DNA of 33,310 bases from a virus. Positions 3,045 to 29,061 of this stretch are shown here, in pieces. The notes beneath the pieces are model-generated. The model ran no database searches and was not told the origin of the DNA. It worked only from the letters and a program-made list of their open reading frames with translations. Both the position numbers and the translations under genes were made by a program. The stretch is taken from IMG/VR virus record IMGVR_UViG_3300037222_000056, positions 1 through 33,310 of that record. The stretch is one strand, 5' to 3'. Each line of letters begins with the position of its first letter. The stretch's first letter is position 1.

Positions 3045-3133
3045 TGCGGGGACGAGTGGCTAAAGTGGCTTCGATGAAAACGACTCTGAAGAAACAAAGG
3101 GCTTCGCGACGCAACGGTGAGTAGCCCACTACC
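3013..3133. repeat. 14-bp perfect inverted repeat around the dnaB start
   Basis: GGTAGTGGGCTACT at 3013-3026 is the exact reverse complement of 3120-3133. The 93 bp between the arms contain the helicase ATG (3042-3044). One arm holds the stop codon of the UDG-like gene and the other encodes helicase residues 7-11. On a minus-strand transcript the arms would form a long-range stem with the start codon in its loop. Confidence 0.8.
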
Positions 3134-3845
3134 GTCCATTGCGAACCAATCCATGAATCCCTTCCCGGAACGCATTTGCTCCACCCATTGATGGATGGCG
3201 AACCGGAGCCAGGGTCGGCACCCGGAGTTGCAACAACGTCCGCGCGGCAACCTGCCCGACCGGCACTACAGGCACTCCCGAGAAATATTCGATCACTGCT
3301 CGCAAGCAAGACACACCAGAATCCACTTCACTGCGCGTCGGCGTGCGATTCGACATGCGCTCGTCGGGCTTGTGCGGATGCCACGCGAACGCGTTCCAGA
3401 GCACAGTGCGATCCGCAAGCTCGAATTCTCGAAGCGTGCGCCAAACGATCGTGGCGGACGGCTCACACCAAGGACGTTCGCGCGTCGTCAGGCGAAACGC
3501 GCTGGACACCCGAGGGATCGCCCCATCCATAATCAGTTTCTCATTGGTGAATGGCACGCCCGAGAAATGGCACCCCTGGTAGCCAGGTGCTTCCCCAACC
3601 AGAATCATTGCCGGCTTGCAGTCGAAGTGGGCACGCAAGCGAGCGACGCGACCGCCGGCACCCCCCGCGAGGGCGTCCATCGGGTCATCCTCGCGCCATG
3701 GGTTAAACACGTGCGGCGACTGGAATGACTGAAGCAGTTCAATGAGTCGGTCCATTCGAGAAAAGCGTTGCGGGGCATTATCCCAAGGTTGGCGGCCACT
3801 TTGACGGCTCGAAAGAATTTGTGCGAGAATTGCGTCGGCAATCAC
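3129..3845 (-). CDS. Uracil-DNA-glycosylase-superfamily protein
   Basis: The 238-residue frame starts with GTG at 3845. An ATG at 3755 (residue 31, MDRLIELLQSF) is an equally good or better start, giving 208 residues. Motifs fit the UDG superfamily (family 4/5-like): ILVGEAPGYQGCHFSGVPFT at 81-100 (GEAPG motif I), a WNAFAWHP segment at 150-157, VVPVGQVAARTL at 193-204 and HPSMGGANAF at 217-226 in the motif II position. UDG enzymes excise uracil from DNA; related phage proteins can instead act in nucleotide or recombination functions. It lies in the replication block between the DUF1376-type protein and the helicase. The exact substrate cannot be read from sequence. Confidence 0.72.
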   Translation of the reverse strand: MIADAILAQILSSRQSGRQPWDNAPQRFSRMDRLIELLQSFQSPHVFNPWREDDPMDALAGGAGGRVARLRAHFDCKPAMILVGEAPGYQGCHFSGVPFTNEKLIMDGAIPRVSSAFRLTTRERPWCEPSATIVWRTLREFELADRTVLWNAFAWHPHKPDERMSNRTPTRSEVDSGVSCLRAVIEYFSGVPVVPVGQVAARTLLQLRVPTLAPVRHPSMGGANAFREGIHGLVRNGR

Positions 3846-4660: not shown

Positions 4661-5128
4661 TTACTCCTCCCCGGTGGTTTCTGGAGGAACTGCGGCTTGC
4701 TTTTGGGCCTTGTGAGTCTTGATGTGATCGAAATACGCGCCCATCATCCAATCGTATTGATTGGGAGATAAAGCCCATTCGATTGCCGACATTACGACTT
4801 CCGGCGGGTGGCCAAGATGCATGTAATGGATCGCGCAAGCCAACGAGTGAATCTCTGCTGAGAAGAATTTATCCCTGACTGTCTCGCATAGAATCCCGAT
4901 GGATTCCTCAAGCATCTCAGTCTCGTCATCGTGACACTTCGCGCATAATGTAACAAGCATTTCGGGCGGGTAATCCCATGGGTCTCGACCGGGGATATAT
5001 CGGCGATGATGAACATGCAGCGTGCTCTCATCGTCATAGCATCTCTGGCACGCGAATCCATCGCGGCTTAGTATTTCCAGCCGCTTCTTCTGCCACCTTG
5101 GATCTTTCAGCTTTTCGGAATAGGTCAT
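4661..5128 (-). CDS. HNH endonuclease-like protein
   Basis: The 155-residue protein has an N-terminal HNH zinc domain: CQRC at 27-30, the HVHHRRY histidine segment at 38-44 and LCAKCH at 61-66, matching the C-x2-C...HH...C-x2-C-H beta-beta-alpha metal fold. The C-terminal half (70-155) is helical and ends in a charged tail, longer than a minimal HNH nuclease. The family includes homing and packaging nucleases. Its place inside the replication block, just after a structured repeat region (5164-5269), fits a homing or mobile nuclease, but terminase-associated HNH proteins usually sit beside terS, which this one does not. The start overlaps an upstream mini-gene stop as ATGA. Confidence 0.8.
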   Translation of the reverse strand: MTYSEKLKDPRWQKKRLEILSRDGFACQRCYDDESTLHVHHRRYIPGRDPWDYPPEMLVTLCAKCHDDETEMLEESIGILCETVRDKFFSAEIHSLACAIHYMHLGHPPEVVMSAIEWALSPNQYDWMMGAYFDHIKTHKAQKQAAVPPETTGEE

Positions 5129-5269: not shown

Positions 5270-5291
5270 TCACTCCAGCGCGACCGATCAT
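5241..5291 (-). CDS. 16-codon leader-like frame
   Basis: A short frame (MIGRAGVIGTLFQLIK) has ATGA overlaps at both ends: with the stop of the 5288-5485 gene and with the ATG at 5244. It is too short to judge as a protein. It may be a leader peptide coupling translation across the structured region, or chance. Confidence 0.25.
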   Translation of the reverse strand: MIGRAGVIGTLFQLIK

Positions 5292-5485
5292 TCACTTTTC
5301 GCGCGCGGGGTCAAGGCTTTGGTGCGGTGGCGGGGTTTCCGCTCTTCCGGCTTCATGCGCGGCCGTCCCCCTGGCACGCCCTTTCGGAATCGGCCGGTGA
5401 AGTTGACGGGGGCCGGCGGTGCGATCTTTGCAGACATGAGCCCGCGCTTCACCATTTCAGGCCACTCTTCTTTTAGGTCGATCAT
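5288..5485 (-). CDS. Small basic protein, unknown
   Basis: The protein has 65 residues. The N-terminus is mixed (MIDLKEEWPEMVKRGLMSAK). From about residue 30 it becomes strongly basic (FRKGVPGGRPRMKPEERKPRHRTKAL), as in disordered nucleic-acid-binding tails. The ATG at 5485 overlaps the original stop of the deleted methyltransferase gene (TGA 5482-5484) as ATGA, and its own stop overlaps the next mini-frame. No family recognised. Confidence 0.55.
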   Translation of the reverse strand: MIDLKEEWPEMVKRGLMSAKIAPPAPVNFTGRFRKGVPGGRPRMKPEERKPRHRTKALTPRAKSE

Positions 5486-5582
5486 GGGGTGAGGTTGAGC
5501 ACTTCTTGGCCCATCCGTTTAGCGGCAATTTCGCAATATTTTTATAGATAGTCACCCAGTCGTCTTGATAATAGGGCGTCAT
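5482..5582 (-). pseudogene. DNA methyltransferase remnant (internal deletion)
   Basis: ATG at 5582, overlapping the upstream stop as ATGA, encodes MTPYYQDDWVTIY, the characteristic first strand of phage N6A/N4C DNA methyltransferases (usually followed by HGDC...). About 40 bases on, a different frame encodes KYCEIAAKRMGQEVL, the characteristic C-terminal helix of the same family, ending in a TGA that overlaps the next ATG. Everything between (SAM-binding FxGxG, catalytic DPPY or SPPY) is absent. The halves meet out of frame at an A5 tract (5539-5543, minus strand). Translation from the ATG runs off-frame to 5457, giving 41 residues. Family assignment rests on these two short but typical termini. 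Confidence 0.65.
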
Positions 5583-5839
5583 TTGAGCACCATTTCCGGC
5601 GTCGCGCAGAGGGCCAGGGCCTTGACGAGCGGTTTGCCCCTCAGCTCGATTGACTGCCCCTTCTTGCCTGCGAGCGATATGATAACAGGCCGAACACCCA
5701 GCGATTTCGCTGTCAGGGCAAGGCGGGCGGTGTCATCGTCGAACAGTCGGTGAATGGACCCGACGTGCCAGAGCGCCTGGCCTCCGTCCCGTGCGCAGTC
5801 GAGCGACTCCTGGAGCTGGCGTTTTTGGAAAAGTTTCAC
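5579..5839 (-). CDS. Hypothetical protein, 86 residues
   Basis: The GTG start at 5839 is chosen because it overlaps the stop of the upstream small gene (GTGA) and gives a natural N-terminus, MKLFQKRQLQESLDC. Longer starts (ATG 5851, TTG 5860) overlap that gene more. The protein is mixed alpha/beta with a hydrophobic strand (VRPVIISLAG) and ends APEMVLK-like (LCATPEMVLK). Its stop overlaps the methyltransferase-remnant ATG. The family is not recognised. Confidence 0.55.
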   Translation of the reverse strand: MKLFQKRQLQESLDCARDGGQALWHVGSIHRLFDDDTARLALTAKSLGVRPVIISLAGKKGQSIELRGKPLVKALALCATPEMVLK

Positions 5840-5943
5840 GGGTACATCCATTCTGGCCAACGACCCTTGCGACGGCCGCGAATCTGTCGCATGGGATCTG
5901 ACTCAATGCTGGACATGCGGACCAGCTCGATAGCCGGCGGCAT
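5836..5943 (-). CDS. 35-residue basic mini-protein
   Basis: The ATG at 5943 opens a 35-codon frame ending at a TGA (5836-5838) that overlaps the next GTG. The C-terminal half is basic and aromatic (MRQIRGRRKGRWPEWMYP), a composition seen in small phage DNA-binding or accessory proteins. An internal ATG at 5916 is a possible alternative start. Supported by overlap and composition only. Confidence 0.45.
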   Translation of the reverse strand: MPPAIELVRMSSIESDPMRQIRGRRKGRWPEWMYP

Positions 5944-27522: not shown

Positions 27523-29061
27523 TCACTCGGGATTTGCTGGCACCGGCGGTGCACCTGACTGATCCCCGCCGGGCTTTGGGGTTTGATTCGGGAAACGCTT
27601 TGAGATAAACGGCAGGACTTCCTCTATCGGGATTCCAAGCTCCGAGGAAAGCTCCTTCGCCGCCATGAGAACCGCCCGCGCGTTCTTGACGTTCTGCGCT
27701 CGGATGTCGTCCATGTCCCGCCCATTGTCGTTCGCGTATTCGTCAGGCCCGAGCAGACCGGCCTCGATAAGTGCAATGTCAGCCGTCGTCTCGCGCCCGT
27801 AATCGACGGAGATTGTTCGCCCCATGTTCCACGAGCCGGCGAAGCGGGAAAGCGAGAACGCCAGCCCCGGGAATGCCGACAGGTCGAGCAATCCTGAATC
27901 AATCCCTTTCTGGACCATGCGATTTTTCAGCGGATTGAGCAGCGTCCGCTTGAGCTGGCGTTTCTCTTCCTCGAATGTGCGCTCCGCTTTGGAAACGTAG
28001 AACCGCTGAACCACGCCGCCAGTCTCAGAGCGATAAACGAACTCGTAAGGGATTCGGCAACCCACCGCGATGTCCCGTTTCAGCTCGGAAACCACTGGCA
28101 GGAATTGCGCGTTCGGGAAGTCGTTCGGGTACTCAACAATCCCCTCGTCGAGCTTGATGTAGTTCTGCTGCACCCCGTCGACCATGGTCTGAACCGCGCG
28201 CGGGCCAAGGCCGGCGGCGGCATTCGCCCCGGCGGACCCAGGATAGCCGTTTTGCATCGGCCGGCCCTGCTCATTCTTCACAATCGGGAGCTGGGAGGCG
28301 CGCCACTTGATGTTCAGCTTTGAGAACTCGACGATTTGATCGACGTCCATCGCGTGCCGGATGCCGTTGCGGAAAGCGGTCACGCCGTGGTATTGCTCGA
28401 ATCGGAACGGATCGTAGAAGTGGATGAAGGCGTTCGCCTCGACGTCTTCTTGGAATTCGTAGGCATTCAGCTTGGGAAGCCTCTTGTAAATCTGGTAGAG
28501 AACTGGCGCCCCTGTCTTTTCGTCGACCAGTATCCCGTTGTAATTACTCGGCCCGATGTTCGCGCCGACAAGCGGGTTTCCGATGCGGTCCGATGAGTAG
28601 TAAACGACTTTCAGGGAGTCGCCTGAATCGACGATCTGAAACCCGGCCTCTCCGTCGCGCTTCTTCGTGCGGATGGCAAGCCGCGCAATCGTCGAGAGGT
28701 CAAGCCGCTGCGAGAGGTCACAGGCGTCAAACTGCCATTCGAGAAAGTTGCGAATCACCTTGTCCGCATCCGGGTTGCCGGTCGTTGGCAGGTATTTCAG
28801 TTCCCCCACCACGAATGTTTCGAAGTCCGAAAGGATACCTTCGACGAAAGGGAAGTCCTCTTCCATCTGCCGAGCGTACCGGATCAACACGATCCGCTCA
28901 AACGCCTGCCGGAAGTCCTCCGGCGTGCTGAGAATATTCGCCGATGGCCGATTGATCCCCGGCTCTGCTCCGGCATAGAGTTTCATCCGGTCCTTGACCA
29001 TTTGCCGGTCAAGACGCCACTGGCCTGTCATGATGCTGTGCGCGAAGTCTGTGAATGTCAT
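27523..29061 (-). CDS. Portal protein, lambda gpB type
   Basis: The 512-residue protein shows the portal layout: RQAFERIVLIRYARQMEED (stem helices), a DGEAGFQIVDSGD crown strand region and ANAFIHFYDPFRFEQYHGVT, the latter matching the H-x-F-x-P-x-R-x-x-Q-x-R/H-G-V/I segment of lambda-type portals. Then come VSELKRDIAVGCRIPYEF and a C-terminal helical tail with a disordered Pro-rich end (PNQTPKPGGDQ). It should form the dodecameric DNA channel. It overlaps no neighbour; the joiner-like gene ends 5 bp upstream. Confidence 0.88.
   Translation of the reverse strand: MTFTDFAHSIMTGQWRLDRQMVKDRMKLYAGAEPGINRPSANILSTPEDFRQAFERIVLIRYARQMEEDFPFVEGILSDFETFVVGELKYLPTTGNPDADKVIRNFLEWQFDACDLSQRLDLSTIARLAIRTKKRDGEAGFQIVDSGDSLKVVYYSSDRIGNPLVGANIGPSNYNGILVDEKTGAPVLYQIYKRLPKLNAYEFQEDVEANAFIHFYDPFRFEQYHGVTAFRNGIRHAMDVDQIVEFSKLNIKWRASQLPIVKNEQGRPMQNGYPGSAGANAAAGLGPRAVQTMVDGVQQNYIKLDEGIVEYPNDFPNAQFLPVVSELKRDIAVGCRIPYEFVYRSETGGVVQRFYVSKAERTFEEEKRQLKRTLLNPLKNRMVQKGIDSGLLDLSAFPGLAFSLSRFAGSWNMGRTISVDYGRETTADIALIEAGLLGPDEYANDNGRDMDDIRAQNVKNARAVLMAAKELSSELGIPIEEVLPFISKRFPNQTPKPGGDQSGAPPVPANPE

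Follow-up and report, generated by a model that had tools for sequence, protein, structure and literature searches.

The question raised by this locus is why a stretch of 98 nt, lying between two neighbouring genes of a phage contig, should encode what look like the first and last segments of a DNA methyltransferase with nothing of the enzyme between them. The window, that is the whole stretch of DNA that was analysed, is 33,310 nt long (IMG/VR virus record IMGVR_UViG_3300037222_000056, positions 1 to 33,310), and comes from an uncultivated phage, identifiable as tailed from genes for the terminase, the portal and the major head protein. On the evidence presented below, the 98-nt stretch is very probably a deletion scar, left when a phage gene for a DNA methyltransferase of the N6A/N4C family lost its interior. 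The features discussed, in window coordinates, are as follows.

5579 to 5860, (-): upstream neighbour, ORF listed from TTG; no relatives found
5544 to 5582, (-): methyltransferase N-end remnant, first 13 codons, MTPYYQDDWVTIY; by translation and 13/13 identity to L012 and L014
5539 to 5543, (-): A5 tract at the putative deletion junction; from the sequence
5482 to 5541, (-): methyltransferase C-end remnant, last 19 codons, KYCEIAAKRMGQEVLNLTP, plus TGA; 17/18 residues as in L015
5457 to 5582, (-): 41-aa out-of-frame fusion ORF, from the methyltransferase ATG to inside the next gene; from the ORF listing
5288 to 5485, (-): downstream neighbour, 65 aa; no relatives found
4661 to 5128, (-): HNH endonuclease gene, two genes downstream of the scar; in several phages its homologues have an intact methyltransferase next to them or close by

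Arrangement of the two remnants

By translation, the codons of the C-end remnant run from 5541 to 5485 (-) and are followed by the stop TGA at 5484-5482; its length is therefore 19 codons, and an earlier figure of 15 was wrong. The stop of the upstream gene and the ATG of the N-end remnant share an ATGA overlap (5582-5579), and a second ATGA (5485-5482) joins the stop of the C-end remnant to the ATG of the next gene. An earlier note on this DNA had described the segments as being in the right order, each in ATGA overlap with its flanking gene, and translation bears this out; the arrangement is that of an intact gene. The same note's claims that the frames do not match and that an A5 tract marks the junction also hold. 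The remnants are 2 nt apart on the same strand in different frames: the codon preceding KYC in the C frame is TAA, while the N frame runs past its remnant to 5457, giving the 41-aa fusion, and the A5 tract (5543-5539, (-)) sits where the frame changes. Translation as a single protein across both segments is not possible.

Identity of the encoded peptides

Degenerate-DNA searches with the two peptides returned four IMG/VR contigs each, and a search with one methyltransferase returned 80 loci; together with further loci that were fetched, these yielded 17 full-length genes of 216-261 aa. A single intact ORF carries both ends in each of several independent contigs (L012/L014, L013, L023, L080, L092, L104, L015 and others), and those intact genes that were tested fall in Pfam N6_N4_Mtase (PF01555) and in PHROG DNA methyltransferase families. 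The remnant retains the N-terminal segment PYYQDD..TIY, typical of the phage N6_N4_Mtase subfamily, and the C-terminal segment EE[KR]YCEIAAKR(M/L).QEVL followed by a stop. The N-end remnant is identical at 13/13 residues to the intact genes L012 and L014, and yet 7 of its 39 bases differ from those of L014, with no residue changed; likewise the C-end remnant matches L015 at 17 of 18 residues but at only 41 of 57 bases (the C-end of L012/L014 reads EEKYCEIAANRMSQEVL). Silent differences of this kind show that the ends were shaped by past selection while belonging to a functional enzyme.

Between the two ends the catalytic DPPY and SAM-binding DPF.GSGTT motifs are absent, and a Pfam search of the whole record gave no PF01555 match elsewhere. 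Family scans of the two peptides by themselves gave no match, the peptides being too short for this. The assignment comes instead from the intact ORFs in independent contigs and their Pfam match, which support the proposal that the peptides are opposite ends of a single phage methyltransferase. Judged by sequence, then, the scar is the remnant of a PF01555 gene, from which no working methylase would be expected.

The peptides are short, at 13 and 19 aa, and unrelated short ORFs might resemble a methyltransferase by chance. When the 17 intact genes were compared with the record by tblastn, the only consistent matches were the two ends, roughly residues 1-13 at 5582-5544 and the final residues at 5541-5491. 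With position-specific scores, the best match to the N-end in the whole 33 kb is at 5582- (45.4 bits; best in random sequence 5.7 +/- 1.9) and the best match to the C-end is at 5541- (48.8; random best 11.5 +/- 2.1), about 20 and 18 standard deviations respectively above the best in random sequence. Because some relatives had been chosen for resembling the record, the profile was rebuilt from 11 intact genes not picked for likeness to it; the N-end remnant then scored 42.4 (intact genes 30.0-42.3) and the C-end remnant 44.9 (intact genes 21.1-47.2). These random-sequence scores and the rebuilt profile rule out chance likeness, whose probability we put at practically nil, and the correct order, common strand, 2-nt spacing and preservation of both overlaps argue against it further.

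Extent, junction and age of the probable deletion

In intact relatives, 186-220 codons (about 560-660 nt) lie between the segments that match the retained ends, in agreement with the claim that hundreds of bases between them are gone. The locus is best explained by loss of the middle, since the remnants are ordered, oriented and overlapped by their neighbours (ATGA) just as in an intact gene. In the ancestor the gene would have been intact, with some 220-250 codons and with ATGA overlaps with the preceding and following genes, and a single deletion probably took the codons after 13 up to the last 19. Such a deletion would be out of frame, so that no methylase would be made.

Most relatives read TAY-CAY-GG after codon 13 and GAR-(AAR or CGN)-TAY-TGC on the C-end side, and the record reads ATCTAT followed directly by AAAAATATTGC at the junction. 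This places the joint, most likely, after the Tyr codon and ahead of the final two bases of a Glu codon; positions 5543-5542 are probably what is left of the Glu codon before KYC. The ends seem to have been joined without evident microhomology. An 8-nt direct repeat, TTGAGCAC, flanks the scar at 5495-5502 and 5583-5590. Recombination at this repeat was considered as the origin of the scar and rejected, as it would remove the whole scar, a different product.

Decay of the remnants is negligible, both scoring as high as functional ends. The lack of decay in both ends suggests that little time, as measured by point mutation, has passed since the loss, and supports the recent date that had been proposed for it.

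It is also conceivable that the short sequence has been retained for a function of its own, either as a leader or coupling peptide or as a mini-protein made by frameshifting at the A5 tract. In its favour, the start codon and coupling overlaps are intact and the A5 tract sits at the frame change; however, in the C frame KYC is immediately preceded by a TAA stop, the RNA fold at the joint is not unusual (z -0.13) and a fused peptide would be devoid of every catalytic motif, and we consider such a use very improbable. A narrower version, that the ends are retained as a leftover coupled ORF still needed to translate the downstream gene, also seems very improbable; were it true, it would mean that phages lose the bodies of such accessory genes and keep their overlapping ends. 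A gapped search of IMG/VR with a narrow pattern found no other collapsed methyltransferase copies, which also speaks against a retained use. Under the favoured reading, an internal deletion, the leftover fusion ORF would be functionless, except that it might at most bring ribosomes as far as the next start codon.

Neighbouring genes in related phages

No relatives of the upstream neighbour were found in IMG/VR, the phage collection or genome contigs, and none of the downstream neighbour in IMG/VR or the phage collection. A DNA search of the scar region in phages gave no match, and the neighbour-gene searches found no relative with the same flanking genes. We infer the deletion event, and do not see it directly, as no close relative was found that combines the same neighbours with an intact gene.

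The closest relative by the DUF1376-like gene (L002, 60%) is without the whole scar region, and against genome contigs this gene gave three remote matches only. A gene of the uracil-DNA glycosylase superfamily (3129-3845, (-)) lies beside the DnaB-like helicase and DUF1376-like genes.

Among the best 80 relatives of the HNH gene, 10 show a methyltransferase match in the flanking sequence that was fetched, and in two of the loci (L101 and L103) a full-length methyltransferase directly precedes the HNH gene; the seemingly short methyltransferase matches beside the HNH genes there were considered and proved to be parts of these full-length genes. In L104 an HNH gene of the same family (47% identity) lies 1.6 kb from an intact methyltransferase of the same family, MIPYYQDDAVTIY...EEKYCEIAAKRMMQEVLAL, which has ATGA overlaps on both sides.

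Possible assembly artefact

Alternatively, the full methyltransferase could be real and the gap an assembly collapse, in which its two sides were misjoined or a minority variant or chimeric read was joined in. Phage populations often vary in their methyltransferases (PMC7468147), and the record does show assembly-graph effects in a 127-nt repeat at the left end of the contig: an exact second copy of the first 127 nt stands at 1307-1433, and the two copies part at the very next base (128). This direct repeat is probably a k=127 branch of the assembly graph, and the first 1.3 kb of the contig may be an alternative path or loop. A collapse at the scar, however, would require both sides to share k bases there. 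Within 60 nt of the joint, the two sides have no word in common longer than 8 nt, and that one lies off the joint, with no longer local repeat at the joint itself; since 8 nt is less than an assembler's word length, graph collapse at this point is unlikely. Further, the reading frames on either side and the two ATGA overlaps are undamaged. Overall, we regard an assembly origin as unlikely, and the internal deletion is preferred.

Elsewhere in the record there is a perfect 27-nt inverted repeat (1448-1474 and 28195-28221), one arm of which is inside the portal gene; it is too long to have arisen by chance.

Discussion

The lost enzyme would, by analogy with its family, have had an anti-restriction role, shielding phage DNA from host restriction, and would then have become dispensable; the scar could thus mark a changed restriction pressure on the phage. 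It offers a clean snapshot of the apparently recent loss of a flexible gene, with breakpoints narrowly placed. The general picture is unchanged by it, as the gain and loss of orphan methyltransferases in phages is already known, and the scar is a well-preserved example of that process.

Among variable metagenomic islands of cryoconite phages, the known genes most often seen are orphan methyltransferases (51), and 9 of these 51 are bridged by deletion reads (PMC7468147). There the variation was seen within populations through read mapping, whereas the scar is seen in one consensus contig.

The N- and C-end peptides of the scar are shared with phage orphan N6A/N4C methyltransferases (PF01555, PHROG 67), among them L014, L015, L104 and mycobacteriophage Juniper1 gp67, and its 4-nt overlaps with the neighbouring genes are found also in the intact methyltransferases of L104 and others. 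Compared with these intact genes, the scar is without the catalytic and SAM-binding motifs and without 186-220 codons. Mycobacteriophage Avani, a cultivated phage, provides a similar case: gp74 has an N-end of the same family, MTPYYQDDQVTLYHGD, and then a premature stop, at 39 codons to the stop. The gp74/gp75 pair (L020:1501-2195) lies in two frames, and each part carries an annotation as a methyltransferase gene. (Avani gp71, also annotated as a DNA methyltransferase, has no methyltransferase motif by eye.) In Avani, however, the body of the methyltransferase is still present in the other frame, as gp75 following gp74, whereas in the scar described here the body appears to have been deleted.
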